Shown piece by piece: positions 19,135 to 54,826 of a stretch of DNA of 64,000 bases. The notes beneath the pieces are model-generated. The model ran no database searches, was not told where the DNA came from, and saw nothing but the letters and a program-made list of their open reading frames with translations. The DNA lies in the NCBI RefSeq assembly GCF_003711225.1, contig NZ_CP031030.1, forward strand, positions 5,817,501-5,881,500, read 5' to 3'. Source of the stretch: Runella sp. SP2 (GTDB lineage Bacteria > Bacteroidota > Bacteroidia > Cytophagales > Spirosomataceae). Position numbers and translations under genes: made by a program. The first letter of the stretch is position 1; each line of letters begins with the position of its first letter.

Positions 19135-19207
<73 letters not shown>

Positions 19208-19212
19208 CAAGC

Positions 19213-19253
19213 AAAAGGCGTAACAAGTTGAAAAACAACGAGTTACGCCTTTT
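19213..19253 (+). terminator. Element-borne terminator behind the tRNA
   Basis: The stem aaaaggcgtaac (19213-19224) / gttacgcctttt (19242-19253) is 12 bp and perfect, followed by caatttt. It lies inside the element directly after the core and replaces the tRNA terminator that was displaced to 28204. Confidence 0.8.
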
Positions 19254-19263
19254 CAATTTTACA

Positions 19264-19285
19264 GCGTAGGCATTAGCGTAGGCAT
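19264..19285 (+). promoter_or_regulatory. Putative integrase arm-type sites, left end
   Basis: A tandem pair of CGTAGGCAT, in cgtaggcattagcgtaggca, recurs with one change in the same orientation at 28025-28045 near the right end. Paired, element-terminal direct repeats are typical arm-type binding sites of tyrosine recombinases; binding is inferred. Confidence 0.6.
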
Positions 19286-19379
19286 ACAAAGAAAAACGAC
19301 TACGCACAGAAAAAAATACCCCTCACTCAACCACCGTTTAAACAGCCTCTTTTATTTAAACACCATTTAAACACCCCCC

Positions 19380-19895
19380 CTAAATAGTGGGCTTAGAAAC
19401 TGGAACGCCTTTAGACCTTTCAAAAAAATCATTCAACCATTTACAGGCAAACCAAACCGTAGCACGGTCGCGACAATTTGAACCGTCCGTAAGTTCCGAA
19501 CTTACCCAACACTCGAACATTTCCCAAATTGCTTTTTGATATTCCTCAGCCTCCGTTTGTACTAACAATTCCTTTGCAGCCTCTAAAATTAGACGGTCGT
19601 TATCGGTAAACACTACGGGCGCGCTCATACTCCCCCCCTCCTTTCTGACCGTAGCGGCCTTTATGGCATCGGTAGCGGCAAACATTGCATCAGCCTGAAA
19701 CACCTGCATAGCATTTGCCAAATAGCGTAAATACGTAATGCTTGTTTTAGGGTCAAATTCACCCTCGGCATAACGAACCGTTTGAAGTGTGTAATCGTAG
19801 GCATTAAATAGGGCAGCGTTTAGGCATAACCACCCCTCAAATGTACCCTCATTGGGGATTCTTATCACCAAGTCCCCGTTGTCGAATGTAACCAT
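19380..19895 (-). CDS. Hypothetical element protein, 171 aa
   Basis: Unrecognised. Soluble, acidic, mostly helical (residues 55-160), with W/F-rich segments (GTFEGWLCLNAALF, ATVWFACKWLNDFFE) and no signal peptide. It is the last gene before the left end of the element and reads toward it. Its ATG is preceded by an 18-nt leader that recurs upstream of a small open frame at 20041. Could be a structural, superinfection or accessory protein; nothing in the sequence decides. Confidence 0.65.
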   Translation of the reverse strand: MVTFDNGDLVIRIPNEGTFEGWLCLNAALFNAYDYTLQTVRYAEGEFDPKTSITYLRYLANAMQVFQADAMFAATDAIKAATVRKEGGSMSAPVVFTDNDRLILEAAKELLVQTEAEEYQKAIWEMFECWVSSELTDGSNCRDRATVWFACKWLNDFFERSKGVPVSKPTI

Positions 19896-19926
19896 AAGTC
19901 TGTAATTTTAGGAAGTAAATAAAAAA

Positions 19927-20021
19927 TGCCCGTCTAAGGTGTCCTAACGCTTACAGAAGCGTTTGGGGGCTTTCGCATAGGGGTACGCCAAAGGGTACAC
20001 CAACCCACACCATCACGGGCA
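19927..20021. ncRNA. Candidate structured RNA or DNA segment
   Basis: Nested pairings: tgcccgt (19927-19933) with acgggca (20015-20021), ggtgt (19938-19942) with acacc (20007-20011), and an inner perfect hairpin aacgctt-acag-aagcgtt (19946-19963). The multi-branch shape suggests a folded RNA or single-strand DNA structure in the leader of the 171-aa gene. It overlaps a possible 35-codon minus frame. No known family recognised. Confidence 0.35.
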
Positions 20022-20041
20022 AAATGTTGATTTCGTAGCAT
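19934..20041 (-). CDS. Possible small ORF, 35 aa
   Basis: An ATG at 20041 preceded by the same leader as the 171-aa gene opens a 35-codon frame (starts MLRNQHFARDGVGW) that ends 38 bp before that gene. It overlaps the structured segment, so coding is uncertain; the shared leader is the only positive sign. Confidence 0.25.
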   Translation of the reverse strand: MLRNQHFARDGVGWCTLWRTPMRKPPNASVSVRTP

Positions 20042-20062
20042 TATCTGTAATTTTTAGGAAGT

Positions 20063-20579
20063 CAAAGGTTCAAAAAATGCGTAGAATTTTGCAATAGTTT
20101 TGAACATCTTTTTTTATTGACCCTAAAAACCCACGTTTTGCCCGTTTAAATGCCATAAAAAGCCCCCAAAAGGCGCAAAACACCGAACGGGCGCAAAAGT
20201 CCCCAAAAACACCAATAAAGCCAACAAAGACTTATTAAACGGGAACTAAAGCCCCCTTTGTTCATGTTTCACTAACGCCCAAGGACGCTGTCTTTAGGCT
20301 CCGAACCAAAAGCACCGTTGAGAAATCGCGGTGCTTTTGGCGTTTAAAGGCTGAGGAACAAAGTATAAGACAATTTTGTTACCATCATTGCCAGACCTGA
20401 GCGGTCAGGCTCACACGGGTTCGGCTCAGGCTTCACCCGTACAAAAAAAGGGTTTGTGCACGGGGCGCTCTGCGGGAGTACTCCACCGACTTGTAAAACT
20501 TTCCAACGAGTTCTTACATTTTAGCAAACCACTATAAACGGCACTTTGAGCAATCAGAGTGCCGTTTATGTTTTCAACA
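20063..20579. other. Non-coding region with clustered inverted repeats left of the array
   Basis: No gene is supported. It contains a 12-bp hairpin ccaaaagcaccg/cggtgcttttgg (20306-20340). At 20396-20457 there is a cluster of overlapping inverted repeats: cctga-gcgg-tcagg, cctgag/ctcagg, acgggt/acccgt and acaaa/tttgt. A 10-bp palindrome ggagtactcc follows at 20475-20484. The motif ccccctttgttcatgttt (20252-20269) recurs with one change at 23442-23459. Such clusters are typical of nicking or replication origins, but no nick site can be named. Confidence 0.5.
20534..20576 (+). terminator. Hairpin with GCAA tetraloop facing the array
   Basis: ataaacggcactttga (20534-20549) pairs with tcagagtgccgtttat (20554-20569) except for one G.T, closed by a GCAA (GNRA-type) loop and followed by gtttt. 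It would end plus-strand transcripts entering the array; the T run is weak. Confidence 0.5.
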
Positions 20580-22414
20580 CGCTGAGGCTAAAACCATCAA
20601 TCGGCCAGGAACCACCAGGTGCCCGCGCTGAGGCCAAAACTGAAAGCCTGGTACCAACACTTGCCAGGAATGACCAGGCACCCATACGCTGAGGCTAAAA
20701 CCATCAATCGACCAGGAACCACCAGGTGCCCACGCTGAGGCCAAAACTGAAAGCCTGGTACCAACACTTGCCAGGAATGACCAGGTGCCCATACGCTGAG
20801 GCTAAAACCATCAATCGGCCAGGAACCACCAGGTGCCCGTGCTGAGGCCAAAACTGAAAGCCTGGTACAAACACTTGCCAGGAATGACCAGGTGCCCATA
20901 CGCTGAGGCTAAAACCATCAATCGACCAGGAACCACCAGGTGCCCGCGCTGAGGCCAAAACTGAAAGCCTGGTACCAACACTTGCCAGGAATGACCAGGT
21001 GCCCATACGCTGAGGCTAAAACCATCAATCGGCCAGGAACCACCAGGTGCCCGTGCTGAGGCCAAAACTGAAAGCCTGGTACAAACACTTGCCAGGAATG
21101 ACCAGGTGCCCATACGCTGAGGCTAAAACCATCAATCGACCAGGAACCACCAGGTGCCCGCGCTGAGGCCAAAACTGAAAGCCTGGTACCAACACTTGCC
21201 AGGAATGACCAGGCACCCATACGCTGAGGCTAAAACCATCAATCGACCAGGAACCACCAGGTGCCCACGCTGAGGCCAAAACTGAAAGCCTGGTACCAAC
21301 ACTTGCCAGGAATGACCAGGTGCCCATACGCTGAGGCTAAAACCATCAATCGGCCAGGAACCACCAGGTGCCCGCGCTGAGGCCAAAACTGAAAGCCTGG
21401 TACCAACACTTGCCAGGAATGACCAGGTGCCCATACGCTGAGGCTAAAACCATCAATCGGCCAGGAACCACCAGGTGCCCGCGCTGAGGCCAAAACTGAA
21501 AGCCTGGTACCAACACTTGCCAGGAATGACCAGGCACCCATACGCTGAGGCTAAAACCATCAATCGACCAGGAACCACCAGGTGCCCACGCTGAGGCCAA
21601 AACTGAAAGCCTGGTACCAACACTTGCCAGGAATGACCAGGTGCCCATACGCTGAGGCTAAAACCATCAATCGGCCAGGAACCACCAGGTGCCCGTGCTG
21701 AGGCCAAAACTGAAAGCCTGGTACAAACACTTGCCAGGAATGACCAGGTGCCCATACGCTGAGGCTAAAACCATCAATCGACCAGGAACCACCAGGTGCC
21801 CGCGCTGAGGCCAAAACTGAAAGCCTGGTACCAACACTTGCCAGGAATGACCAGGTGCCCATACGCTGAGGCTAAAACCATCAATCGGCCAGGAACCACC
21901 AGGTGCCCGTGCTGAGGCCAAAACTGAAAGCCTGGTACAAACACTTGCCAGGAATGACCAGGTGCCCATACGCTGAGGCTAAAACCATCAATCGACCAGG
22001 AACCACCAGGTGCCCGCGCTGAGGCCAAAACTGAAAGCCTGGTACCAACACTTGCCAGGAATGACCAGGCACCCATACGCTGAGGCTAAAACCATCAATC
22101 GACCAGGAACCACCAGGTGCCCACGCTGAGGCCAAAACTGAAAGCCTGGTACCAACACTTGCCAGGAATGACCAGGTGCCCATACGCTGAGGCTAAAACC
22201 ATCAATCGGCCAGGAACCACCAGGTGCCCGCGCTGAGGCCAAAACTGAAAGCCTGGTACCAACACTTGCCAGGAATGACCAGGTGCCCATACGCTGAGGC
22301 TAAAACCATCAATCGGCCAGGAACCACCAGGTGCCCGCGCTGAGGCCAAAACTGAAAGCCTGGTACCAACACTTGCCAGGAATGACCAGGTGCCCATACG
22401 CTGAGGCTAAAACT
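20580..22414. repeat. Tandem array: 17 copies of a 107-bp unit plus a 16-bp partial copy
   Basis: Seventeen head-to-tail units start every 107 bp from 20580 to 22292; a partial copy starts at 22399. Each unit is two related monomers of 46 and 61 bp, both opening with cgctgaggcyaaaac and ending in a ccaggaa..accaggtgccc block, with different centres. Units differ only at four sites, giving six variant types (P-U). Their order is P Q R S R T Q U, repeated exactly, then U. GC content is about 57 percent, higher than the host. The length is not a multiple of three, so translations cycle through frames and are not taken as genes. Confidence 0.97.
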
Positions 22415-22415
22415 G

Positions 22416-22448
22416 AAAAAAAAGGCACTCCGTGTAAAACAGAGTGCC
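22416..22448 (-). terminator. Minus-strand intrinsic terminator at the right edge of the array
   Basis: Read on minus, ggcactc and gagtgcc form a 7-bp stem around an 11-nt loop, followed by eight T residues. It ends the minus-strand HTH/replication genes before the array. Confidence 0.75.
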
Positions 22449-22590
22449 AAAGCCTAACCCAAATACCACCTAAACACCTTACTAACGCCTGCGGGTGACT
22501 ACGCCCCCCACGCCCCCCGTGCCTCAACCCCAACAGCCGAACCCGCACACACCCACACACGGCCAAAGGTTCAACTATTGGCGTCGAGGT

Positions 22591-22776
22591 CTAACCCTCC
22601 TTTCTCAAATTGTGATACCCGCCCCTAGTCCAAATAATAGCCTCAATGGTAACTTTAGAGTAAAAAAACTCTTTTGCCAATTGCTCATAAATTACGTCAT
22701 CCCTCAAACCTTGCTTATACAATTTGAGGTACTTTTCTTTTACTGCTTTGTGCCTAGCTTCTACGTGTTCTTTCAT
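22591..22776 (-). CDS. Small helix-turn-helix-like protein, 61 aa
   Basis: I use the ATG at 22776 (MKEHVEARHKAVKEKY); a longer frame to 22866 would begin with an implausible hydrophobic leader. The protein is highly basic and helical; LYKQGLRDDVIYEQLAKEF followed by YSKVTIEAIIW has the spacing of an HTH. Likely a DNA-binding regulator or replication accessory protein of the element. It is the last gene before the terminator that borders the repeat array. Confidence 0.6.
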   Translation of the reverse strand: MKEHVEARHKAVKEKYLKLYKQGLRDDVIYEQLAKEFFYSKVTIEAIIWTRGGYHNLRKEG

Positions 22777-22928
22777 TGAAGTTGAATGTTTAAAGTGATG
22801 AAAAAAAAGAAATAACCAAGGGAAGGAAACGGGACGAACCACGCCCATTTTGCCGCGCAATTCCAACGCCTTTTTAAAAAAGTCTCAAAAATCCCGTTTT
22901 AGCACCTAACAAAACGCTATCAATTTGC

Positions 22929-23228
22929 CTATAATAGCCCCTCTTTTGCCTTATATCGCTTCATATAATTAAAAACAGTCCCTTTACTTACTTGCAACAT
23001 TTGGGCGATTTCTGCGTAAGTTTTACCCCCTTCGTGGAGGTCATACGCTTTTGCCTCAACATTTTTGCCCGTTGTCTGTTCTTTCCATTCTCCAAGCTGC
23101 ATATATCTCTCAATTGTTCTCGTTGAAAGGTCTAGCAGCTTTCCTATTTCTTGACAATTCAACCCCATGACGTAATAACGAAACGCCCGTTCCTGAGGCG
23201 TTACTTGTTTCGTGCTTTTGCTTTTCAT
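22929..23228 (-). CDS. Double helix-turn-helix protein, 99 aa
   Basis: Two HTH units in tandem: YYVMGLNCQEIGKLLDLST followed by RTIERYMQ, and GGKTYAEIAQMLQVSKGT followed by VFNYMKRYK. This resembles resolvase or sigma-like HTH repeats. Basic N-terminus MKSKSTKQVTPQERAF; start at 23228, although an ATG nine codons upstream exists. Predicted DNA-binding protein; its two units could bind repeated DNA such as the nearby array, which is inference. Confidence 0.75.
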   Translation of the reverse strand: MKSKSTKQVTPQERAFRYYVMGLNCQEIGKLLDLSTRTIERYMQLGEWKEQTTGKNVEAKAYDLHEGGKTYAEIAQMLQVSKGTVFNYMKRYKAKEGLL

Positions 23229-23578
23229 GCGTATTGTTTTAAAAAGTTCAACCAAAATTTATACTTCTTTAAAAATTGGCGTGTCGGCTTTTTATGTACG
23301 CAAGTGTGCGTATTTTTTTGCATTGTTTTTGCTTCGTTTTTAACACACCCCCACATTCCAATATTTAGCCCCTGACACCCGTTTTTTAGTCAAATCACTA
23401 CCTTTTTTATTGATTTTCACCCCATGAAATAGGGAATTTCACCCCCTTTGTTCTTGTTTGCGTATTTTATTGATACACTTTTAAACACAGTCCAAAAAAG
23501 GTTTAATTTTACCCTAATAAATACCCATTTTATCACTGATTATCAGACACTTATTAAGTATTGAACAGGTTTGAACAA
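23229..23578. other. AT-rich intergenic region in the element
   Basis: No gene or RNA recognised. It carries two ttcacccc copies (near 23415 and 23437) and ccccctttgttcttgttt (23442-23459), which matches 20252-20269 in 17 of 18 bases. It probably holds the promoter of the double-HTH gene. Confidence 0.5.
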
Positions 23579-25009
23579 CTAAGAGGCACATTGCTCCCCC
23601 AAATTACTATTTGTCAACCCCTGTAACAGTTCTTTAGCAGTCGAACCCGCCAAAGTTCCGGGTGTTTCCTTCAATAGTTCAACCCTCACCACCCTATCCA
23701 ACCACTCCCGCGAAACCGCTATTTCAGAAGAATGAAGCACGTCCGAAAATTGCTCCCCTTCATTGTTGGCCGCGTGGTATGTAATCCTGACATACATATC
23801 TTTCTCTTTGGCTCTCATTACTTGCAATCGTTTTGTTTTTCGTTGGTTGCTATCCTTATTTCTACATTTTTTCGCCCCTACTCCTTTGTACTTTTCCGCG
23901 CAAAAGCGGCTTTTCTTTCGTTGGTGCGAAATATCCGAACCACACGAACAACACACCCGCGTTTCTACTTCCTTCGGAGGTATCATTTTTGTTTGTTCGT
24001 CGCAAAGGGTAAAACCCATGTTTTCACCCATACATTCAAGCGGTGAAAACATGGGTTTTTCAACTGCTTCTTTTGGCTCAAAAATCGGTGAAAACGTGGG
24101 TATTTTTTCCGCTTCCGAATCTCCGTTTTTAAGCCTTTCCCATTCTTCAAAAACCCGTTTTTTTAAGTCTGCGTAAACGTTAAAAGCGTTGCATTTTTCC
24201 AATATTCTTTTAACCTGTTCTCGCTTACTTCTCCGTTGCTCAAAACCAAGTCCCGCCCATCTTTCGGGCTGTCTGAATGTTTCCAAAACCAACCTTTCGC
24301 GCTGATTTAGAAAATTCAATTCTGCGTAAGGGTCTATAAAAACCGTATGTTTTAACGCATCAAAAAGAACCTCAATCAATGCGTAAACCTTGCCCGTGTT
24401 AAGCAAATCCGCCAACGTTTCGAGTCCGTAAGCGTCAAGAAATCTCATTTTCAAAACCTTTACTTCTAGTCTCAAAATCGGCTTTTCAATTCCGCTCTCA
24501 TTCCCTTTATGGTAAATTTTAACCTCATATTCTCCACGGCTACACATTTTACCATTTATACGACTTCGTGGAGGCCATGAATAAGCCTTATCCTTATGAA
24601 CAATCGCGGATTTTATCACCCTAACAACCTGACTATTAGACGAGTATTCCAAATTTACACCAATTTCCAAGCCGTGTAAATATGCCTTTGAAGGGTCAAT
24701 ACAAAAGCGTTTTTGCATTTCAGCCACTACGTTACGTATGTCGGTAAACGTGAACCTGTCATAATTATACAAACCATCGTTTTTGTACTTATGAATAGAA
24801 CCATCTACCCAACACCTAACGCCCCCACTTTTTGACGGTGATACGCTGAAAGTCAAGCCTTTATATTTGGCCTTTCGTGGCTTTTCCAGTATTTCCCCCG
24901 TACTCTCCATGACCTCCAACGGAAACCCATCGACCCCCAAAAGTTCGGGCGATTCAAACCATTTTTTAGGGTCTAGGGCATGACAAACTATATTGATACC
25001 GTCGAGCAT
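23579..25009 (-). CDS. Putative rolling-circle replication initiator (gene II/X-like)
   Basis: 476 aa from the ATG at 25009 (MLDGINIVCHALDPKKW); an ATG at 25081 is possible. Signs of a phage/plasmid Rep of the II/X or Rep_trans kind: GLEIGVNLEY, then VKIYHKGNE with a candidate active-site Tyr, then ILRLEVKV. A Ser/Pro-rich stretch with repeated MFSP/TFSP and MGENMG follows, and the C-terminus has a CxxC...C...C zinc-ribbon-like segment (CCSCGSDIS, FCAEKYKG, KKCRNK). It would nick and start replication of the excised circle. It is the third gene of an operon behind the excisionase-like and 141-aa genes. The family call is from motif layout only. Confidence 0.6.
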   Translation of the reverse strand: MLDGINIVCHALDPKKWFESPELLGVDGFPLEVMESTGEILEKPRKAKYKGLTFSVSPSKSGGVRCWVDGSIHKYKNDGLYNYDRFTFTDIRNVVAEMQKRFCIDPSKAYLHGLEIGVNLEYSSNSQVVRVIKSAIVHKDKAYSWPPRSRINGKMCSRGEYEVKIYHKGNESGIEKPILRLEVKVLKMRFLDAYGLETLADLLNTGKVYALIEVLFDALKHTVFIDPYAELNFLNQRERLVLETFRQPERWAGLGFEQRRSKREQVKRILEKCNAFNVYADLKKRVFEEWERLKNGDSEAEKIPTFSPIFEPKEAVEKPMFSPLECMGENMGFTLCDEQTKMIPPKEVETRVCCSCGSDISHQRKKSRFCAEKYKGVGAKKCRNKDSNQRKTKRLQVMRAKEKDMYVRITYHAANNEGEQFSDVLHSSEIAVSREWLDRVVRVELLKETPGTLAGSTAKELLQGLTNSNLGEQCAS

Positions 25010-25105
25010 CAGCCAACAAAATAAATACCTGATTTTTAAGACATTAAAGCCTTTCTCTATGAAGAAACGAGAAAGAAACAACTACCAACACAAGACCAAA
25101 CCGCC

Positions 25106-25531
25106 CTAATGTTTTTTCTTTGGCACTACCTTATCTTCTACCAAAGCGTAACAATCAAAAAGCGTCCCCAATGCCTCACTTAAATGCTCCTCAATAGCAT
25201 TTAAAACATCCAAACTTATCACGTCTAACCCATGAAAGAGCAATAAAGCCATAGATTTAGCAATCAATAGCGAACCATCAGCCAACGACAAACAAACCTT
25301 TTGAGGTACTGTAGGATAGTCAACCATTCCCACGGGATAAGCGTCAAACGCTTCTATCAAAGGCTTTAAATCCCTTAGTATCGGCCTTTTCTTGGCCAAA
25401 ATGTACCCTTGTAAAATTTGCCTTACAGTTTCCAACTCATCAAGCACTTTTTCAAAAGCATCTATTTTGCTTTGAATTAGTGCGTACTTGTGAGCATGGG
25501 CATAGTTTGGAGAATGAGAAAACGGAGTCAT
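25106..25531 (-). CDS. Hypothetical element protein, 141 aa
   Basis: Unrecognised helical, slightly acidic protein: a coiled-coil-like segment (SKIDAFEKVLDELETVRQIL) at 22-45, a hydrophobic middle (SLLIAKSMALLLFHGLDVI) that is too short and amphipathic for a clear membrane span, and a basic tail. Its ATG overlaps the stop of the excisionase-like gene by 4 bp (ATGA), so translation is coupled. It precedes the replication gene by 96 bp to that start, or 24 bp if the longer start is used. Confidence 0.65.
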   Translation of the reverse strand: MTPFSHSPNYAHAHKYALIQSKIDAFEKVLDELETVRQILQGYILAKKRPILRDLKPLIEAFDAYPVGMVDYPTVPQKVCLSLADGSLLIAKSMALLLFHGLDVISLDVLNAIEEHLSEALGTLFDCYALVEDKVVPKKKH

Positions 25532-25836
25532 TGACGCACCCCCTTCCCTGTAGCTTTGGCCGCGTCCAAAACCTCGCTTTTAAGATAGCGTACTTTGTTC
25601 CCAATGTGACGGGGGAAAAGAATACCTATCTCTTTTTTACTCCATTGCCAAACTGTCACCTTTGAAATTTTCAAAAGTGCAGCAACTTCATCACGGGTTA
25701 GGTATTCATCAGAAGAAGCGGGAGGGGCTACACGGTCATATAATTTATGTATAGCATCTTTCAAGTTCGCAAACTCTGAAAGGATTGTTTCAGCGTCTAA
25801 GTGCTGAATTTGTGTACTAACAATTTGCTTTTGCAT
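25528..25836 (-). CDS. Excisionase-like winged-HTH protein
   Basis: 102 aa from the ATG at 25836. The C-terminal half is a MerR/excisionase-type winged HTH: EYLTRDEVAALLKISKVTVW followed by QWSKKEIGILFPRHIGNKVRYLKSEV. A helical N-terminus (residues 8-40) probably dimerises. Such proteins bend DNA during excision or control the integration genes. First gene of the xis-141-rep operon, with a 4-bp overlap to the next gene. Confidence 0.8.
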   Translation of the reverse strand: MQKQIVSTQIQHLDAETILSEFANLKDAIHKLYDRVAPPASSDEYLTRDEVAALLKISKVTVWQWSKKEIGILFPRHIGNKVRYLKSEVLDAAKATGKGVRQ

Positions 25837-25929
25837 TGAGCGTATTTTTTTGTTTACACCGCAAAACAAAGCAAAACAAACTATCTCAAACGGGGCGCAA
25901 TGGTGCGCACTGTATTTTTCAAATATTTA

Positions 25930-26622
25930 TTATGAAAATTCTATTAATTCAGGTATTCTAAACCTATCCCTATTAGCTTCACTTAATCCTTTTTCATTGT
26001 CAGGACTAAGCGCCTGTCGTAAATTTTGCTCACTACCAAGTTCGCCATCAAATGTAGATTTTAACAATTTGGCAAAGGCTGTATAATTAATTTCACCATT
26101 GCGCTGACGGGGCGGCTTAATATACCCCTTTACCGCTAATTCGCTCATTAAATGAGCTAATAACGAAGGTGTAGCAATCCACTCTAATTTTTGATTTTTA
26201 GCGGGAACATCCTGATACTCTGCATATAACCGTTTGATATATTGGTAAAAATCATAACGCCCCAAATCTTCTGCCAAGTCGCTAATTACCCTTAATCTAT
26301 CATCTACTTTTGTATCAAGATTATAGGCAATTGGCATCATTATACTTGATTCGTAACTACGCTTAAAATGATACTCAAAATCCGTATCCAAATACTCACT
26401 TAATAGCTGTAATTGGTCTAAGCTTTTATCAAAGTCGTTATTCAAATCCCTCAATTGCCGCCCAAACTCCTCTTTTCTCAACTGATTAATTAGACTTACT
26501 TCATCATCATTTGGCAAAAAAGGGCTACAACCAACATAATGACCATCAAAACGCCCTTTATCATTTCTAAGCTCCAATAGAACATCAAAATATTTTGCTA
26601 CTTTAATTTCAGGACTTTTCAT
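25930..26622 (-). CDS. Hypothetical protein, possibly RteC-like, 230 aa
   Basis: An acidic helical protein (FDKSLDQLQLLSEYLDTDFEYHF). The C-terminal segment IATPSLLAHLMSELAVKGYI followed by INYTAFAKLLKSTFDGELG has the pattern of RteC-type domains that control excision in Bacteroidota mobile elements; the resemblance is weak. Lies 34 bp downstream of the integrase on the same strand, so probably in its transcript. Regulatory role is a guess. Confidence 0.55.
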   Translation of the reverse strand: MKSPEIKVAKYFDVLLELRNDKGRFDGHYVGCSPFLPNDDEVSLINQLRKEEFGRQLRDLNNDFDKSLDQLQLLSEYLDTDFEYHFKRSYESSIMMPIAYNLDTKVDDRLRVISDLAEDLGRYDFYQYIKRLYAEYQDVPAKNQKLEWIATPSLLAHLMSELAVKGYIKPPRQRNGEINYTAFAKLLKSTFDGELGSEQNLRQALSPDNEKGLSEANRDRFRIPELIEFS

Positions 26623-26656
26623 ATCAAAATTTAATTTGGATTAATAACTAAACACT

Positions 26657-27964
26657 TTATTTACTGACCTCGAAAAGTCGTTTTTGTTTCCCTTCCCATG
26701 CAGCGGCTATAATTTGGGCGTGTTCCTCCTCCGATAGTTTGATATAAGACAAAAACGCCTTTTCCGTTCGATGCCCCGTTATTTTCATAATGGTTATAGT
26801 AGGTATATCCATTTTGTAAGCGTTTGTAGCAAATGACCGTCTAGCCGTGTGAGTGCTGACCAATTCCCATTTTTCAAAAGTCTGTGTAATTCTTACCCCC
26901 GCTTTAGTGATTGATTTATGCACTAATTCATCCATACCCGAAAGCCTACATAGTTCTTTCAAGTAATCATTCATTTTTTGATTAGAAATGGCACGGGGTA
27001 AATTGCCGTCATATCTCCCTAATATAGCCTTAACTATTGGATGGCATGGTATTACTACCTTTCCGCCTGTTTTTGCTTGTTCTAGCCTAATTACACCCTC
27101 TTTTACGTGTTCGGGGCGTACATTGGTTAAGTCAGAAAACCGTAAACCAGTCCAACAGCCCACTAAGAACAAATCACGTACACGTTCTAAGCGAACATTT
27201 TTAGATAGGTCAAATTCATAAAGCGCCTGTAACTCTGCTTCTGTCAAGTAAATACTATCGGCACTTTCTTTGACTACTTTAAACCGCCTACTTTTATAAT
27301 CAGCCTTTACATTAATTCCTTTAGCCGTCGCCTCATTGAGAAACGTTTTTAAAGTCTGTATGTACTTGCCTACGTTGTTAGCTGCAAATTTTTTACGGTT
27401 GGTTAGATACTCCGTAAAATCCCCGTAGAAATCCAAGTCCATTGAATCAAAATCAATTTTTCTTGAATACCCTTTACCAAATTCTTGCAGCACATCAAAA
27501 ACCGTTTTATACTTCTGTATAGTCCTATACTCAATTTTTTTGCCGCTTGATGGGTTGACCCGTTCGGGAGACTTTTCTATAAATTCTCGAATGAAAGCAA
27601 ATAAAGGCGACTCAGTAGGCACAACGGGTACAGGTACAGGAGTTAGAAAAGCCTCAATTTTTTGCCTAAATGTATCTTTGGTTAAAGTTAGTTCACTCCG
27701 TAACTCCTCTATTATCCCCAATGCCTCTACCTCAATTTTATGCAATCGGTCATTTATTTTTCTAGCATTGGGAAAATCACTAACCAACCTCACTTTATTA
27801 TTTCCCCACCATTTAGACAAAACAAACTGACCCGTATTAATCCGAACCCGTTGTTTATCAAAACAAGCTACCAAATAAATAGGGCGTGGCGAATCTAGTT
27901 CAGGGCGTATTACTTCAAATTTTATGCCTGTCCTTTCGTTGCGAACTCTTTTCAATTTTGCCAT
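26657..27964 (-). CDS. Tyrosine recombinase / integrase
   Basis: A 435-aa phage/ICE-type integrase. Arm-binding-like N-terminus, SAM-like core-binding domain around 118-220, catalytic domain from about 235. Catalytic residues visible: Arg275 (TGLRFSDL), Lys298 or Lys302 (QAKTGGK), His372 and Arg375 (THTARRS), His398 (TGHRTEKAF), Tyr407 (SYIKL). It would recombine the tRNA-end core sites. Located at the right end, reading inward. Its promoter lies beside the right arm motif, so binding could repress its own expression. Confidence 0.95.
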   Translation of the reverse strand: MAKLKRVRNERTGIKFEVIRPELDSPRPIYLVACFDKQRVRINTGQFVLSKWWGNNKVRLVSDFPNARKINDRLHKIEVEALGIIEELRSELTLTKDTFRQKIEAFLTPVPVPVVPTESPLFAFIREFIEKSPERVNPSSGKKIEYRTIQKYKTVFDVLQEFGKGYSRKIDFDSMDLDFYGDFTEYLTNRKKFAANNVGKYIQTLKTFLNEATAKGINVKADYKSRRFKVVKESADSIYLTEAELQALYEFDLSKNVRLERVRDLFLVGCWTGLRFSDLTNVRPEHVKEGVIRLEQAKTGGKVVIPCHPIVKAILGRYDGNLPRAISNQKMNDYLKELCRLSGMDELVHKSITKAGVRITQTFEKWELVSTHTARRSFATNAYKMDIPTITIMKITGHRTEKAFLSYIKLSEEEHAQIIAAAWEGKQKRLFEVSK

Positions 27965-27989
27965 TTTCTACAAAATATTTAGACGTTCA

Positions 27990-28020
27990 CAAACATACCA
28001 TTTTTACCGACACCAAACAA
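27990..28020 (-). promoter_or_regulatory. Promoter of the integrase gene
   Basis: On minus, TTG (28020-28018), 20 bp, then TATGTTTG (27997-27990) fits the Bacteroidota -33/-7 pattern. It lies 26 bp before the start codon and abuts the arm motif at 28025. Confidence 0.55.
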
Positions 28021-28024
28021 TTAT

Positions 28025-28045
28025 CGTAGGCATTAACGTAGGCAT
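28025..28045 (+). promoter_or_regulatory. Putative integrase arm-type sites, right end
   Basis: cgtaggcattaacgtaggca, the right-hand counterpart of 19264-19285 (one base different, same orientation), next to the integrase promoter. Confidence 0.6.
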
Positions 28046-28180
28046 AACTATTTATTTTATTTGAATCTAGCTTAATTTAACTTAATCAACAAATAGTCAA
28101 AAACAAAGCTAAAAGCATTAAAAACAACACTTTATGGGCTTTTTCAGAAAGACAACAAGGAAACAAAATTAAAAAGGTTA

Positions 28181-28200
28181 GAGTCCTGTTCCCGCTACAA
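28181..28200 (+). repeat. Attachment site, right (attR core)
   Basis: Identical 20-bp copy of the tRNA 3' end; not a second tRNA because the rest of the cloverleaf is missing. Confidence 0.92.
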
Positions 28201-28830: not shown

Positions 28831-30669
28831 TTAAAGGTTGTCTCCCCGCAGTTGTCTAAATCGTTTTCGTGCATCAGCCGCGTAAATACTCGCTGGATAC
28901 TTTTCAAGCAATTTTTGATACAACTCCATTGATTTGTCTTTGTCCTTGAGTCGATTTTGGTACAAATCGGCCATCATGTAAAGTGCATCATCGCCAAGAA
29001 TGTCCATTGCATACTTATCCACAATTACCTGCAAGTTTTCCACTGCTTTTACATTATCCCCCATTTTGGCGTAGGTTTTTGCTTTAAGCCACAAAATTTC
29101 GTCGGCCAGTGTATGGTCTTTGTATTTTTTCAACATCTCGTCTAAGCGCCCTAGCGCAAGCTCTGGTTGATTCTGATACAAAAGCAGGTCAATCGACGCA
29201 TATTCCTTCATCGCGTCTTCTGAGGTATCTAAACCCGTATTATCTTGAATTAATAGACTCAACGAGCCTGCATCGTTCGCAATCTCGCGGGATGTGGCCA
29301 TTTTCAGGATGTCCAGTAAGGCTTTCGACAGTTCAAAATCGCCCGTATAATAAAATTGTCGTGCGTTTCTAAGTTTGGCCTCATACCCAAGAGGGGTTTC
29401 TTTTTGTGACTTTTCCACTTGAGAGTACAGCAATGTGGATTCCCAAGGCTCATTTTTCAACAAATAAATATCTCCCAAGTCTAATTTACATTTGTCGATA
29501 AAATCACTTTCAGCACGTCCAATTTTAACAGCATCTTGAAGCACCACAATGGCCGAATCTTTGTCATCCATGTAAAACGCGTATAAATTGGCCATGCTGC
29601 GCATCGCTTCTAAGGTGCGGTTGTTTTGTCCCAACTCCGATAATAATTTTCGATAATCATCAATCAGTTTACGCACGCTTGGTTTTTCAATCGGAAACGT
29701 GTTTTTCACTTGTTCTTCTCTGGCCACAATCACCATACGGCGTGCATAAGGATACAACTGCCCTTGCGGATATTCTTTGATCAGATAATCGAATGATTGA
29801 ATGGCCGCGTTGTAATCTTTGTTTTGCAGCGCCAAGTTTCCTAAGTCAAAAACTTTTGTTCCGTTGTATTTGAGCCTTCTATCAAGTGCTCTTTCCTGGA
29901 TGAATGCTTTTCCGAATTGTTTTTTCTGGGTAAAAAACCAAATCAGCATCTCAGCATAGAAAGTTTCATTTGGGTGCCGCTGAATTTTTTCATACAATAC
30001 TTTCTCAAATTTCGCTTGGTCTTTTTCTTCTTTGAGAAAATCTTGCAAATAGTTTTGAATCACTTCTTTGTTTTGAATGGCCAAACCAAGACTCAGCAAT
30101 TCTTCAATCATTTGTTCGGTCTTTCCCGTTTGGGCATACAATGACGCCAGCTCCATTTTGAAAATAGATTCGTTGCCCGCCGCAGCACGTCCTTTCAGTA
30201 AGGCCCCTATCGCCGCTTCTGTGTTGTCTATTTCCCGAAACTCATCAGAGAGTTCTTTATACGCATTGATGTCCTTAGAAGGCACTTGTGCTAGGCTTTC
30301 ATCGTATTTCTGCATTGCTTGGGGCATTTGTCCCGTTTGTTCGAGCATGCGTCCCCAATAGAGCGTATATAAATAGCCAAACCGAGCGTCTGATTTTTGC
30401 TGGCGTTTGAAAAACTTTTCCGCTTCTTCAAAATCCTTCAATTTAATTGAACAGCTCACATACCTTCTCAGATAAATCTTGTTGAAGTCTTTGCGTAATA
30501 TTTTTTGATAAAGCGCAACGACTTTATCACACTCTCCTTTTTGAAAATAGGCATCCGCTAAGTCAGCGTCGCTTTGCGCATAAGCCACACTGGTCATTAA
30601 CCACAAGCCTAGCCCCACGAGTAGTATCCACACCCGATTTGGGGTTATACACACTTTTTCTTTTCCCAT
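28831..30669 (-). CDS. Secreted tetratricopeptide-repeat protein
   Basis: 612 aa from the ATG at 30669 (MGKEKVCITPNRVWILLVG); signal peptide ending near SVAYAQ. The rest is nearly all TPR helices (for example DADLADAYFQKGECDKVVALYQKIL and DDALYMMADLYQNRLKDKDKSMELYQKLLEKYP). Probably a periplasmic scaffold protein. The C-terminal repeats resemble YbgF/BamD-like outer-membrane helpers, but no specific partner can be named. Forms an operon with the phosphatase. Its upstream region is the DnaA-box-rich gap. Confidence 0.85.
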   Translation of the reverse strand: MGKEKVCITPNRVWILLVGLGLWLMTSVAYAQSDADLADAYFQKGECDKVVALYQKILRKDFNKIYLRRYVSCSIKLKDFEEAEKFFKRQQKSDARFGYLYTLYWGRMLEQTGQMPQAMQKYDESLAQVPSKDINAYKELSDEFREIDNTEAAIGALLKGRAAAGNESIFKMELASLYAQTGKTEQMIEELLSLGLAIQNKEVIQNYLQDFLKEEKDQAKFEKVLYEKIQRHPNETFYAEMLIWFFTQKKQFGKAFIQERALDRRLKYNGTKVFDLGNLALQNKDYNAAIQSFDYLIKEYPQGQLYPYARRMVIVAREEQVKNTFPIEKPSVRKLIDDYRKLLSELGQNNRTLEAMRSMANLYAFYMDDKDSAIVVLQDAVKIGRAESDFIDKCKLDLGDIYLLKNEPWESTLLYSQVEKSQKETPLGYEAKLRNARQFYYTGDFELSKALLDILKMATSREIANDAGSLSLLIQDNTGLDTSEDAMKEYASIDLLLYQNQPELALGRLDEMLKKYKDHTLADEILWLKAKTYAKMGDNVKAVENLQVIVDKYAMDILGDDALYMMADLYQNRLKDKDKSMELYQKLLEKYPASIYAADARKRFRQLRGDNL

Positions 30670-30719
30670 TATAAAAACAATAAACATTAATTTTTAAAAC
30701 TATTAAAGTTAATTAAGGC

Positions 30720-31245
30720 CGGGGATAAGTGGAAAACAAAACTATTCACAAGTTTTCCACTTTATTCTAAAACGCTTTTGTGAATAAAATATAAGGTTAT
30801 CCACTTGTTTTTATTTTTTTCCACAACTGAAATTACTGTTTTTCAAGCAAATAAACAATTGTTCACATTTTGCCGTGGATTGTGGATAGTCTTATCAACG
30901 ATGTGGATGACTATTTGTCCACAAAATTCAGTGTGAAAAACACCTTGAAATGATGTGCAAAACCTGTGTAGATTCCCACACAGTGGATGTGGACAAATAA
31001 TTCTCCACAATTCAAAAAGGTTATCGACACCCTTATCCCCGGATTATCCACTAAATTGTGTGAATGAAAACAGTTATCCACAATGTTGTTAACATTTTTT
31101 CCGCCAAATGTTCTTTTTTGTGAAAATGACGTTTCACAAAGTAAAACCTACCTACGCTCATTTTGAGTATGTACAAAAAATGCGCCAAGAGGCGCATTAG
31201 CTTTTCCACATTGTATGTGAATTGTGAATTATTTTGTGGATAAGT
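30720..31245. other. DnaA-box cluster, candidate replication origin
   Basis: A gene-free AT-rich stretch with many 9-mers close to TTATCCACA. Perfect boxes: 31074-31082 (+) and 31235-31243 (-). One- or two-mismatch boxes on + at 30753, 30797, 30817, 30859, 30915, 31001, 31021, 31044 and 31202; on - at 30881-30889, 30902-30910 and 30988-30996. AT-rich runs border it. mnmG, a frequent origin neighbour, and a parS-like site lie 2-4 kb to the right. The head-on orientation of the genes to the right argues against it. Confidence 0.6.
31171..31198 (-). terminator. Terminator of the Ig-like lipoprotein gene
   Basis: aatgcgcc-aaga-ggcgcatt (31179-31198) is a perfect 8-bp stem; on minus it is followed by a T run (ttttgtac). 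Confidence 0.8.
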
Positions 31246-32890
31246 CTATATCTATACCACTCAAGACAAAATTTTTCTTGACTTTGATGACATCAGGATA
31301 AAAAAGAATGGGTTCGGCCAATTTTCGGGTTTTAAAATCGCCCGTATCCCACTTCCCATTCTGGTTTTCATCTACAATGACCCGAATATTATATAGGGCT
31401 GGTTTTAAGTAACTGAATTGGAATGATGGTTTTGTGGATGTTTTGACGACCTCAAATTTCTCGTCCAATAACTCTATAATAAATGGTTGCTTAGCTCCCT
31501 TAATTTCGCCTTCTAACATACCATATTCTTCTTCTTCCATGATGGGAAGTTTATATATCCGCTCTGGAATGGTGTCATTTTCTACGCTAAAAAAAGTGCT
31601 TTTGGGAAGGATTACCTTCAATAACTTACGGGCTGAAATTTGGTGGGTAAGGGTAAGGATTGTTTTATTATTTTCCCATGTATAATCGCTAGGAAGTAGC
31701 TGTTCGGTTTTGAGGCTATCGCTTACCAACTGAATTTGGTTCAACCTAGCCTCTGCTAAGGGTTTATTGAAGGTGAGTTTTAAAGTAAATAATCGAGGTT
31801 CGATTGGGTCATTGTCTTGGTGACTGGCTTTCATATCAAACGGTTCTCTATTGCTTTCGCTATTTTTTCCTGTGTTTCGAGCTTCTCGAAATTTGATTTT
31901 TTGAACGTGTTCAAAAGTGAGTCCTACGGAGTCTCGAATCATAATTTTTGCCACTAATGTATCTTTCCTACTTTTGGTATTGAAGAATTTCAACTCGCTT
32001 GGACCGTTCTGAAGGTAGGGAATGGAGTCGTTTGGATTATCAAATTTTACTTTATAATCCACAAATCCTTTGTCATAATTGATAGAATAATAATAAGTTC
32101 GTGGGATGGTTCCCTTTACTTTTGCAGGGGTAGTATTGGCTAAAAACAGCTTGAGGGAAGCGCCTGAGAATTGCGTAGAATCTTTAATGACGAGGCTATC
32201 TCTTAAATATGCAATCCTCTCCGTCTTCGGATTGTAGGTAAATGAACGGTTTTTGTCATCGAAAGCTACAAGTCGATAAAGGTTGGACTGAATATTTTCG
32301 ATACTAAACCTTCCCGAACTATCAGACCGTGTAAAATACATTGGCTTCATTTTTTCGATATTGAGTGTATCCGAATGTGGGTAGAGGCCAACCAAAACAT
32401 CAATCATGGGCTTGTTGGTCTGTACATCTTTCACCTCTCCCCTAACGAGTGCAGAGTCGATACCAATCCCTGTACTAAACACGAGTCGTAAATTTTTAGC
32501 AGGATTTTTTTCGCTAAAATCTTTGATAGCATCCCCAAACGAAAACGAATATGTCTTGGCTGAATCCAATGATTTTTTAAATACAAGCCGAACACTCGTT
32601 GGTTTGGCTTTGTACTCATACTCGCCTGGGTCGGGTGTAACCAACAATTTTTGCTGTAGGTTTTCGGCTACAATGTACTCGTCAAATTCAAGTTCAATGG
32701 TTTTTCCTTTGTAGTTGGTTTGCTTATTTTCAGGAATACTCTTTATCAACTTTGGCGGAATTGTATCTCGTTTTCCTCCCGTTGGAGAAATGGGTTGAGA
32801 GCAACCTAGTAGTAAGAAGTAAAAAGCAGCCGTCAGCAGACTGTAAATTCGAAGTGTATTTACTAACTGTTTTATGTCGAAGGAACTCAT
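31229..32890 (-). CDS. Ig-like (SbsA/Big_5-type) domain lipoprotein
   Basis: 553 aa from the ATG at 32890; the lipobox FLLLGC follows a hydrophobic h-region. After it, TGGKRDTIPPKLIKSIPENK opens an Ig-like SbsA domain (about 35-130), followed by a carboxypeptidase-regulatory-like repeat (RGEVKDVQTNKPMIDVLVGL) and a C-terminal segment with DENQNGKWDTGDF, a calcium-loop-like motif. This layout (Ig-like domain-containing protein) is common in Bacteroidota envelopes; function unknown. A longer start at 32944 would place a terminator hairpin inside the coding region. Confidence 0.85.
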   Translation of the reverse strand: MSSFDIKQLVNTLRIYSLLTAAFYFLLLGCSQPISPTGGKRDTIPPKLIKSIPENKQTNYKGKTIELEFDEYIVAENLQQKLLVTPDPGEYEYKAKPTSVRLVFKKSLDSAKTYSFSFGDAIKDFSEKNPAKNLRLVFSTGIGIDSALVRGEVKDVQTNKPMIDVLVGLYPHSDTLNIEKMKPMYFTRSDSSGRFSIENIQSNLYRLVAFDDKNRSFTYNPKTERIAYLRDSLVIKDSTQFSGASLKLFLANTTPAKVKGTIPRTYYYSINYDKGFVDYKVKFDNPNDSIPYLQNGPSELKFFNTKSRKDTLVAKIMIRDSVGLTFEHVQKIKFREARNTGKNSESNREPFDMKASHQDNDPIEPRLFTLKLTFNKPLAEARLNQIQLVSDSLKTEQLLPSDYTWENNKTILTLTHQISARKLLKVILPKSTFFSVENDTIPERIYKLPIMEEEEYGMLEGEIKGAKQPFIIELLDEKFEVVKTSTKPSFQFSYLKPALYNIRVIVDENQNGKWDTGDFKTRKLAEPILFYPDVIKVKKNFVLSGIDIDLSTK

Positions 32891-32920
32891 GTGTTGGGCG
32901 AAATTTTTAACAAAAATAAA

Positions 32921-32940
32921 AAGGGCTTTTGTTAGCCCTT
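32921..32940 (-). terminator. Hairpin between mnmG and the Ig-like gene
   Basis: aagggc/gccctt with an 8-nt loop, followed on minus by tttttatttttg. A second, tandem terminator behind mnmG. Confidence 0.65.
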
Positions 32941-32986
32941 GCAAATTAACATCTTTTAAAATGAGTTTATTGTTTGACGACTTTCT

Positions 32987-33041: not shown

Positions 33042-34904
33042 TCAGCGTCCTATGTGGATTAATAAAACCGAAACATCTGAAGGACTAACTCCGCTGATTC
33101 TGGAGGCTTGCCCCAAAGTGTGCGGTCTAATGGTTTTAAGTTTTTGTCGGCCTTCAAAAGAAAGCGCAGGGACTTTGTCATAATCGAAATTGGGGATGAT
33201 TTCGAGGTCTTCCAACTTGTTCATTTTTTCGACCATTAATCTTTCCTTTTCGATGTAGCTTTCGTATTTCACTTTTATCATGGCCTGTTCTGCCGACTCT
33301 TCATTAAAGCCATTTAAAAATGTGGCAAAGCTTTCACTGAGTTTTTTGATGTCTTCGATTTCTACATCAGGCCGTTTTAGCAATTGATACAGGGGCTGTT
33401 TTTCTCGAATAGGAGACGTACCTATCTCTGCCAAAATCGGATTTACTTCATTGGGCGTTACTTTCACTTTTTGAAGCTCTTCTAAAATTACCTCGGTATT
33501 GGCAATTTTTTCTTGTACACGAACTAAACGTGCTTCGCTGGCCAACCCTATCTTATGCCCTAATGCCGTGAGTCGAATATCGGCATTGTCTTGGCGGAGT
33601 AAAGTACGGTACTCTGCCCTAGAGGTAAACATTCGGTACGGTTCTTCCGTCCCTTTGTTAACGAGGTCATCAATCAATACACCAATGTATGCTTCGGATC
33701 TTTTTAAAATAAAAGCATCTAACTCGTGCGCATTTTGGTGCGCATTGATTCCTGCAATGAGTCCTTGACATGCTGCTTCTTCGTACCCTGTCGTTCCGTT
33801 GATTTGACCTGCAAAGAATAAATTACCAATCAAGTGAGTTTCTAGGGTGAGTTTTAGTTGAGTTGGGGGGAAATAATCATACTCAATGGCGTACCCTGGT
33901 CGGAACATTTTTGCATTTTCAAAACCTGGTATAAGTCGAATGGCTTTGTATTGAATATCCTCTGGAAGTGATGTCGAAAAACCGTTGATATACATTTCTA
34001 CGGTTGACCAGCCTTCGGGTTCTACAAAAATTTGGTGACTGTCTTTGTCTGCAAAACGATTGATTTTATCTTCTACTGATGGACAGTAACGCGGTCCAAG
34101 CCCTTTAATCCGCCCCGTAAACATGGGTGATTTGTCGAACCCAGTTCTTAAAACACCATGTACTTTTTCATTGGTATAGGTAATCCAGCAACTTCTTTGA
34201 TGGGTAAGGGGTGGGGTGTCGGTATAAGAAAACTTGCTTGGGATTTCATCGCCTGGCTGTTCTTCCATCTTTGTATAGTCTAGCGAACGACCGTCTATGC
34301 GAGGTGGCGTACCTGTTTTCATTCGCCCTGACTCAAACCCCAATTGAATAAGTTGTTCGGTGATTCCAGTGGCAGCCTTCTCCCCTACCCTACCTCCTCC
34401 AAATTGTTTTTCGCCAATATGGATTAATCCGTTTAAGAATGTACCGTTGGTTAGCACCACAGCCTTCGCGGTAATTTCCACGCCGAGTGAGGTTTTTACC
34501 CCAACAGCTCTGTTATCTTTTACAATAATTTCTTTCGCTGTGTCTTGCCAGATGTCCACGTTTGGGGTTTGTTCCAATGTCATTCGCCATTCTTCCGCAA
34601 AACGCATACGGTCACTTTGGCATCTTGGCGACCACATTGCGGGCCCTTTTGAGCGATTCAACATTCGGAATTGAATCATGGTTTTATCGCTAATTATTCC
34701 TGACTGTCCTCCAAGTGCATCAATTTCTCGTACAATTTGCCCTTTTGCTACACCGCCCATTGCTGGGTTACACGACATCTGAGCAATCGTGTGCATATTC
34801 ATTGTGATGAGTAAAACGTGGGAGCCCATGTTTGCCGCTGCCGCCGCTGCCTCACAACCTGCGTGCCCCGCTCCTACTACAATCACGTCGTATTCTGGAA
34901 ACAT
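33042..34904 (-). CDS. mnmG: tRNA uridine-34 carboxymethylaminomethyl modification enzyme MnmG (GidA)
   Basis: A 620-aa FAD enzyme. The N-terminal dinucleotide fold is VIVVGAGHAGCEAAAAAANMG. The MnmG core includes CNPAMGGVAKGQIVREIDAL and FRMLNRSKGPAMWSPRCQ, and the motif GQINGTTGYEEAACQGL is intact. The C-terminal helical domain binds MnmE and tRNA. With MnmE it modifies the wobble uridine of several tRNAs. Full length for the family. Often found beside oriC in bacteria, in keeping with the DnaA-box cluster 2 kb downstream. Confidence 0.97.
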   Translation of the reverse strand: MFPEYDVIVVGAGHAGCEAAAAAANMGSHVLLITMNMHTIAQMSCNPAMGGVAKGQIVREIDALGGQSGIISDKTMIQFRMLNRSKGPAMWSPRCQSDRMRFAEEWRMTLEQTPNVDIWQDTAKEIIVKDNRAVGVKTSLGVEITAKAVVLTNGTFLNGLIHIGEKQFGGGRVGEKAATGITEQLIQLGFESGRMKTGTPPRIDGRSLDYTKMEEQPGDEIPSKFSYTDTPPLTHQRSCWITYTNEKVHGVLRTGFDKSPMFTGRIKGLGPRYCPSVEDKINRFADKDSHQIFVEPEGWSTVEMYINGFSTSLPEDIQYKAIRLIPGFENAKMFRPGYAIEYDYFPPTQLKLTLETHLIGNLFFAGQINGTTGYEEAACQGLIAGINAHQNAHELDAFILKRSEAYIGVLIDDLVNKGTEEPYRMFTSRAEYRTLLRQDNADIRLTALGHKIGLASEARLVRVQEKIANTEVILEELQKVKVTPNEVNPILAEIGTSPIREKQPLYQLLKRPDVEIEDIKKLSESFATFLNGFNEESAEQAMIKVKYESYIEKERLMVEKMNKLEDLEIIPNFDYDKVPALSFEGRQKLKTIRPHTLGQASRISGVSPSDVSVLLIHIGR

Positions 34905-34966: not shown

Positions 34967-34982
34967 TGTTTCACATGAAACA
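34967..34982. promoter_or_regulatory. parS-like site
   Basis: TGTTTCACATGAAACA differs from the bacterial parS consensus (TGTTTCACGTGAAACA) at one base. It sits within a 12-bp-arm palindrome, 34962-34987, in the mnmG upstream gap. ParB sites cluster around chromosomal origins, which supports an origin nearby. No parA/parB gene in the window. Confidence 0.55.
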
Positions 34983-53554: not shown

Positions 53555-54826
53555 ATGTTACTGATTCGTTCTGTAAAAATTACCGATATTCGTTCGCCTT
53601 ACAATGGGCAAGTGAAAGATATTTTGGTCGAAAATGACCAAATTTCTCAGATTGCTGATCACATTGAGGCTCCTAACGCCCAAGTACTTGAAGGCGACAA
53701 CTGGCACCTTTCACCTGGTTGGGTGGATATGCGCGTTCATGCGTATGACCCAGGATATGAACACAAAGAAGACTTGCGTTCGGCGTGTGCAGCGGCGGCG
53801 GCGGGTGGTTTTACGGAAATAGCCGTCTTACCTAATTCAAAACCTGCCCTCGACTCAAAAGATACCCTTGTCTATGTAAAGCACAAGGCAAAAGGGCAAG
53901 CGGTGAATGTCCACCCGATTGGCGCGGTTACAAAAAGCTGTGAGGGGAAAGATTTTACCGAAATGATTGACCTGTCGAATGCAGGTGCGGTGGCATTTTC
54001 GGATGGTTCACACCCCATCTACAACACGCATATTTTGTTGAAATCGTTGCAGTACCTGCAACAGGTTGACCGAGTGTTGATGAACCGTCCCGAAGACTAC
54101 GATTTGACCGTGTTTGGTCAAATGAATGAAGGGGAAATGAGCACATTGCTTGGCATGAGGGGAATCCCGACCATTGCAGAAGAACTCATGGTCATGCGCG
54201 ACCTAAAAATGCTCGAATACATGGGTATTAAAAGTGAAGCTCCCCTCCTCCACTTCTCGACGATTTCGACGGCGACGACGGTTGAACTGATTCGGGCGGC
54301 GAAAGCTAAGGGGTATCCCGTGTCTTGCGACGTAGCAGCGCATCAAATTGCGTTTGACGATTCGGCCTTGTTGAATTTTGATACCAATTATAAAGTCAAC
54401 CCACCCTTTAGAGCGAAAGCTGATATTGAAGCGATTTGGGAAGGATTGGCCGATGGTACCATCGACGCCGTCGTGTCGGATCATAATCCCCAGGATGAAG
54501 AGTCTAAAAACCTAGAGTTTGACTTGGCAGAGTTTGGAATTACGGGATTAGAAACTGCTTTTGCATTGCTCAATACGCACAATAAACATGTATCGCTTCC
54601 TCAGTTAGTAGAAAAGTTGACGCATCAGCCACGTACTATTTTACGATTGCCTTCGGTGACCGTCTCAGAAGGAGAAGTGGCCAATTTTACCATTTTTAAC
54701 CCTGATTTGGAATGGATTTTTAAGGAAACACGTTCAAAATCAAAGAATTCACCATTTTTTGGAACCCAATTTAAAGGCAAAGCCGTCTATGTTATCAACC
54801 GTGGAATGGTGGAAAAATGTGGATAA
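53555..54826 (+). CDS. Dihydroorotase-family protein with degenerate metal site
   Basis: A 423-aa amidohydrolase of the PyrC class I type: SPGWVDMRVHAYDPGYEHKED, AVAFSDGSHP, LLHFSTIST and VVSDHNPQDEE. Compared with catalytic enzymes, the first His of the HxH metal pair is Arg60 (R-V-H62), and the HCED motif is NRPED, so two histidine ligands are missing, while LLH and SDH remain. This resembles the non-catalytic PyrC'-type paralogues. A structural or altered-specificity role is likelier than normal dihydroorotase activity. Starts a three-gene run with DUF4199 and the J-like protein. Confidence 0.8.
   Translation: MLLIRSVKITDIRSPYNGQVKDILVENDQISQIADHIEAPNAQVLEGDNWHLSPGWVDMRVHAYDPGYEHKEDLRSACAAAAAGGFTEIAVLPNSKPALDSKDTLVYVKHKAKGQAVNVHPIGAVTKSCEGKDFTEMIDLSNAGAVAFSDGSHPIYNTHILLKSLQYLQQVDRVLMNRPEDYDLTVFGQMNEGEMSTLLGMRGIPTIAEELMVMRDLKMLEYMGIKSEAPLLHFSTISTATTVELIRAAKAKGYPVSCDVAAHQIAFDDSALLNFDTNYKVNPPFRAKADIEAIWEGLADGTIDAVVSDHNPQDEESKNLEFDLAEFGITGLETAFALLNTHNKHVSLPQLVEKLTHQPRTILRLPSVTVSEGEVANFTIFNPDLEWIFKETRSKSKNSPFFGTQFKGKAVYVINRGMVEKCG

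Follow-up and report, generated by a model that had tools for sequence, protein, structure and literature searches.

The 541-bp intergenic gap at 30688–31228 is almost certainly the chromosomal origin of replication (oriC) of Runella sp. SP2, whose chromosome measures 7.43 Mb. Positions are given in the window, the whole 64-kb stretch of DNA that was analysed, which covers 5817501–5881500 of a contig of 7,432,530 bp. The gap had been put forward as a candidate oriC in the original prediction, and this is borne out by a skew fit whose origin, 5.85 Mb, falls within the window, and by a gene-level skew switch at the gap itself. Judged from its sequence, it would be an ordinary oriC of the mnmG-linked kind. 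DnaA binding, the unwinding site and the origin activity at this gap are predictions.

DnaA boxes and other features of the gap

In the 526 bp at 30720–31245, 25 nine-mers lie within two mismatches of the DnaA box TTATCCACA, 13 lie within one mismatch and two are perfect. When these 526 bp were dinucleotide-shuffled 1000 times, the mean counts were 2.93, 0.27 and 0.007, and the maxima were 10, 3 and 1, respectively. The dense cluster described in the original prediction is therefore present, but its count of about fourteen boxes within two bases was too low. The perfect boxes that it placed at 31074, 31235 and 28812 have all been found there, and a fourth one nearby, at 29015, had been missed. 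Its description of the region as AT-rich also holds, with a G+C content of 0.34 in 30720–31245, which is almost wholly intergenic.

The cluster is denser than expected by chance, against both the shuffles and 40 other stretches of the chromosome. When the 64-kb window was scanned in 526-bp segments, the best segment started at 30561 and held 14 boxes within one mismatch, and segments starting outside 30100–31300 held at most four each. The whole window holds 37 matches within one mismatch (16.0 expected), 13 of which are located in 30720–31245. The comparison sample, about 11% of the chromosome, was made up of 40 stretches of 20 kb, and the best 541-bp segment of a stretch held one box in 22/40, two in 16/40 and three in 2/40. 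Two perfect boxes, 12 bp apart, are also observed at the end of an ORF (54818–54838; starts 54818 and 54830).

The features of the region are as follows, where rows are those of the 14-row alignment described below and a box is a match within one mismatch.

28831–30687, minus: gene for a TPR-repeat protein, on the left side of oriC (ORF, family synteny)
30668–30717, no strand: candidate DNA-unwinding element, 90% A+T, holding the conserved block TTAAAACTATTA (putative function)
30688–31228, no strand: oriC, a 541-bp gap between genes that carries the DnaA-box cluster; genome 5,848,188–5,848,728 (boxes, skew fit, GC3 skew)
30720–30736, minus: two weak boxes overlapping in tandem, TTTTCCACT at 30728 and TTATCCCCG at 30720 with an offset of 8 bp, next to the AT-rich element
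30779–30787, minus: DnaA box TTATTCACA, box in 14/14 aligned rows
30797–30805, plus: DnaA box TTATCCACT, 13/14 rows
30817–30825, plus: DnaA box TTTTCCACA, 13/14 rows
30826–30845, plus: conserved non-box block ACTGAAATTACTGTTTTTCA, intact in 12/14 rows
30881–30889, minus: DnaA box CTATCCACA, 13/14 rows
30902–30910, minus: DnaA box TCATCCACA, 11/14 rows
30915–30923, plus: DnaA box TTGTCCACA, 13/14 rows
30988–30996, minus: DnaA box TTGTCCACA, 9/14 rows
31001–31009, plus: DnaA box TTCTCCACA, 13/14 rows
31021–31029, plus: DnaA box TTATCGACA, 12/14 rows
31044–31052, plus: DnaA box TTATCCACT, 14/14 rows
31074–31082, plus: perfect DnaA box, box in 14/14 rows
31179–31198, minus: hairpin then T-run on the minus strand, inside the box region (31160–31215 folded as DNA, z −4.95)
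31202–31210, plus: DnaA box TTTTCCACA, 14/14 rows
31229–32944, minus: Ig-like (Big_5) protein gene, right neighbour of oriC, elsewhere in some relatives (ORF, family synteny)
31235–31243, minus: perfect DnaA box within the last codons of the Ig-like gene, box in 14/14 rows
33042–34904, minus: mnmG (gidA), GIDA match, E 3e-165
34967–34982, no strand: parS-like site TGTTTCACATGAAACA with one mismatch, located between the genes mnmG and ybeY (motif match)

The location of mnmG 1.8 kb from the gap agrees with the original prediction. The hairpin at 31179–31198 is likely the transcription terminator of the Ig-like gene.

A mobile element of about 9 kb is inserted next door and runs from a tRNA-Met gene to about 28.2 kb. 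Each of its edges is marked by a 20-bp repeat of the 3' end of the tRNA, an integrase gene lies at 26657–27964, and the boxes could in principle belong to the origin of this element. It ends 2.5 kb left of the gap, however, and a close relative (locus L100) has the box cluster without the element. In addition, an integrase match was found in 0/40 family loci of 6 to 16 kb each, and this explanation is therefore given hardly any credence. The element itself (19191–28200) is inserted in the 3' end of the tRNA-Met gene (19135–19208), and its integrase is of the tyrosine type. It also contains an Rfam match to c4-2 RNA at 19924–20022 on the minus strand (49 bits, gathering threshold 41).

GC skew and gene orientation

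The original prediction had named the GC skew of the chromosome as a check, and this was run on sampled stretches. The data comprised the 40 fetched 20-kb stretches (0.8 Mb), one of which overlaps the window, and the first 60 kb of the window itself, taken as three 20-kb pieces. Fitted over a grid of 25 kb, a two-arm model placed the origin at 5.85 Mb, at the site, and the terminus opposite, at 2.075–2.25 Mb, a bracket that includes the antipode of the gap at 2.132 Mb. The fitted mean skews of the arms were +0.047 and −0.056, with a residual sum of squares of 0.038 of 0.152. Four of the 43 pieces (starts 937501, 1875001, 7125001 and 4500001) have the wrong skew sign for their arm, which counts against the fit. 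No match to an E. coli-like dif pattern was found in the genome.

At the gap, the skew switches from negative to positive. Across the minus-strand gene block at ~31–46 kb, plain GC skew is about zero, and the skew at third codon positions (GC3 skew) is −0.16 in the TPR gene and +0.17 in the Ig-like gene, both on the minus strand. The sign change in GC3 skew thus falls between the two genes that bound the gap. Left of the gap, with the mobile element excluded, GC3 skew is negative in 15/17 ORFs, and right of it the values are zero or positive in 24/25, for mechanically called ORFs and values rounded to two decimals.

A high number of boxes is not in itself proof of an origin, and the cluster may instead be a locus for DnaA titration or DnaA reactivation, like datA or DARS of E. 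coli, with the true origin elsewhere. The second small group of boxes (perfect at 54818 and 54830), 24 kb from the gap, is compatible with this. On the other hand, none of the 40 sampled stretches, which cover about 11% of the chromosome, has more than three boxes per 541 bp, and the skew switch coincides with the gap at both gene resolution and chromosome scale; both argue against a titration locus, which is considered very unlikely. A datA- or DARS-like locus would not be located at the start of replication, and by skew only, the gap is.

The dcw genes to the right of the gap had been raised as a counter-argument in the original prediction, as they would be transcribed head-on to replication. 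The orientation is mostly as described: 16 of the 22 long ORFs right of the gap are on the minus strand, head-on to the rightward fork, and on this side minus-strand long ORFs account for 22.8 kb versus 5.9 kb for those on the plus strand. This carries little weight against oriC, because the sampled stretches hold 209 long ORFs co-directional with the fork and 210 against it (53.8% of coding bases run with the fork), and because mnmG points the same way relative to the gap in every one of the 34 family loci where mnmG and the Ig-like gene occur together.

In a dnaA-linked origin of the Bacillus subtilis type, dnaA is expected within a few kb. Here, the one DnaA match is located at 1.322 Mb (1,322,438), 2.9 Mb from the gap. 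DciA and ParB_N also have one match each, at 1.222 Mb and 1.122 Mb; the three matches are 2.7 to 2.9 Mb from the gap. Together they span about 200 kb (1.12–1.32 Mb). In 12 family genomes, Runella sp. SP2 and 11 relatives, dnaA and the TPR or mnmG locus are 1.1–2.9 Mb apart, with distances worked out by hand and contigs taken as circular. In 3/12 of these genomes, dnaA is in the first 1.1 kb of the contig, as if the record started there.

Conservation in Runella and synteny in the family

DNA of the gap was matched in 12/12 other Runella genomes, in one of them (G005) only in pieces. Outside the genus, it was matched in 3/26 genomes: over most of its length in a sister genus (G018), and over about 56 bases each in G023 and G029. 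At the G023 locus (L036), as many as 10 boxes fall within 520 bp. The G029 piece (L037), a weak match at order level, lacks a box cluster, which counts against the assignment. The re-oriented 14-row alignment contains the window (in place of L022), 12 same-genus loci and G018, and omits the short partial matches L036, L037 and L038. Of the box positions in the window, 14 hold a match within one mismatch in 9/14 rows or more, five of them in 14/14. Mean column identity is 0.93 in boxes within one mismatch versus 0.75 at gap positions outside all boxes, and a box-against-rest identity difference of 0.16 was reached by 0/5000 circular shifts.

At the position of the tandem boxes (30720–30736), relatives L026 and L030 carry TTATCCACTTATCCACGG. 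The 3' part of the 20-bp block ACTGAAATTACTGTTTTTCA (30826–30845) is common to one sister genus, G018. The 12-base part of this block also occurs a single time each in L075, L080 and L185, off the gap in L075 and L080.

The Ig-like gene was found in 58/61 genomes, including Runella sp. SP2, and 40 of its loci were fetched, 37 outside the genus and three within. It adjoins mnmG in 34/40 loci, and the segment richest in boxes is at the gap in 30 of them, with at least five boxes in 27 loci and three or four in L080, L082 and L096. The place of the cluster is therefore shared by relatives, with L086, L087, L091 and L099 as exceptions; in these 4/34 loci the densest segment is away from the gap, which counts against the assignment. 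Over a wider stretch, three of the four (G053, G059 and G074) still have their densest segment, with 4–6 boxes, on the far side of the TPR gene at 5.4–6.6 kb from mnmG. The Ig-like gene is away from mnmG and the TPR gene in the other 6/40 loci, and 0 or 1 box was found within 700 bp of it there. Seven genomes have an mnmG locus without the Ig-like gene (G014, G016, G044, G055, G063, G064 and G069), and all seven have a box cluster (5–10 boxes) between the TPR gene and mnmG, 1.5–1.6 kb from mnmG. The six displaced Ig-like genes with 0 or 1 box belong to six of these seven genomes. As the cluster stays at the TPR gene and mnmG when the Ig-like gene is absent, in most loci it tracks these two genes and not the Ig-like gene.

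Two family genomes were compared with their skew. In G016, the skew origin bracket of 6.42–6.76 Mb includes mnmG (6.626 Mb) and excludes the Ig-like gene (4.32 Mb). In G052, the skew is weak and its origin at 2.36–2.62 Mb is about 0.17 Mb off the orthologous gap (~2.786 Mb), which counts against the assignment. The box cluster near mnmG is not phylum-wide: among 20 loci outside the family (20 of 59 other genomes fetched), only five have at least four boxes within one mismatch per 541 bp. In eight draft genomes (G020, G042, G050, G057, G065, G067, G080 and G082), the contig starts 5.7–5.9 kb left of the stop of the Ig-like gene. This shared contig start, ~5.7 kb from the gene, points to a repeated sequence at that position, for instance an rRNA operon.

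The parS-like site, proposed initiation and comparison with known origins

Clusters of parS mark the origin region. In the 7.6-Mb genome of Runella sp. SP2, TGTTTCACATGAAACA is the only parS match within one mismatch (two positions free), and it is located 3.7 kb from the gap; a perfect site was not found in this genome. By our own arithmetic, about one such match per genome is expected by chance, and the weight of this site therefore comes from its place. A site within two mismatches is present on the mnmG side in 12/40 family loci and was not found in 28/40, which counts against it, and in some of the latter a more degenerate copy is visible near mnmG. In background stretches of three family genomes (80 stretches, 1.6 Mb), no parS site within two mismatches was found. 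Outside the family, 20/20 mnmG loci have at least one site within two mismatches. Perfect parS sites are present in 43/60 genomes of the phylum. Among the 75 perfect sites listed (41 genomes), 66 are within 2 kb of mnmG and 73 within 8 kb, and one is on another contig than mnmG; 36 of the 41 genomes listed have parS within 200 bp of mnmG. The combination of parS clusters and skew is described for gut bacteria, including two Bacteroidetes, in PMC10197239.

The gap could also be explained as the promoter region of the TPR gene, regulated by DnaA, without an origin, as the cluster is upstream of this gene and remains with it. This leaves both the skew switch and the parS-like site near mnmG unexplained, and it is regarded as extremely improbable. 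The gap could, however, serve as both origin and TPR promoter.

With the gap taken as oriC, an AT-rich element adjoins the boxes, as seen from both composition and conservation. Positions 30668–30717 form the 50-mer with the highest A+T content of the window, tied with one other start. The TPR ORF, when counted from its first start codon, extends over the first 20 bp of this 50-mer, and a later in-frame ATG of the ORF ends at 30669. In the basal unwinding system (BUS) described in PMC8287927, tandem boxes are directly beside an AT-rich stretch, with usual 3'-GAT-5' trios. The tandem boxes of Runella likewise adjoin an AT-rich stretch, but unlike that system, only a loose middle-A pattern is visible by eye. 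The BUS criterion applied was a box, a spacer of at most 16 bp and at least three trios with a middle A. Four middle-A triplets start 13 nt past the box at 30720 (by eye), and 3'-GAT-5' trios were not evident after the tandem boxes when read by eye. From the sequence, the trio pattern appears too loose and too weak for a BUS claim. A regular expression for tandem boxes matched 6/40 family loci, two of them elsewhere in the locus, and not the Runella window; no clean unwinding motif was therefore derived.

Initiation may proceed as follows. DnaA, encoded 2.9 Mb away, would bind the box cluster, and the DnaA oligomer would spread to the tandem boxes at 30720–30736 and melt the adjoining AT-rich element at ~30668–30717, beside the TPR gene. 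A loader of the DciA type would then place the replicative helicase, and forks would depart in both directions. ParB at the parS-like site just upstream of mnmG would gather the newly copied origins for segregation.

The oriC of E. coli has an AT-rich unwinding element, as in the Runella gap, and fewer boxes than this gap. It is described as adjoining gidA and mioC (PMC4446571, PMC10225481), and the TTATCCACA boxes and the mnmG (gidA) neighbour are common to both origins. Unlike in E. coli, the direct neighbours in Runella are the TPR and Ig-like genes, with mnmG 1.8 kb off and one gene between, and the Runella genome has a DciA match. For the Flavobacteriaceae Mariniflexile litorale (PMC11278836) and Algorimicrobium (PMC12843772), oriC is reported beside mnmG on the basis of Ori-Finder 2022 and GC skew. 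In the Mariniflexile report, the position of dnaA disagreed with the skew plot, and a figure legend swaps the oriC and ter labels relative to the text (PMC11278836). As in these predictions, the Runella origin is beside mnmG and not at dnaA; unlike them, it belongs to another family, and its support includes skew at gene level, synteny within the family and a parS-like site. The gap is a well-supported further case of the mnmG-adjacent oriC already predicted in Flavobacteriaceae.

A broader reading is tentative and rather doubtful: in Bacteroidota, the cis side (parS, and oriC in the family of Runella) may be fixed around mnmG, with the trans genes dnaA, parB and dciA now distant, and the 20-bp non-box block of Runella, part of which is common to a sister genus, may bind an origin factor. 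The gap provides a precise origin for a genus whose origin cannot be inferred from the position of dnaA. The order TPR–oriC–mnmG–parS is a possible marker for origins in draft genomes of the family, and it could also aid growth-rate estimates from coverage.
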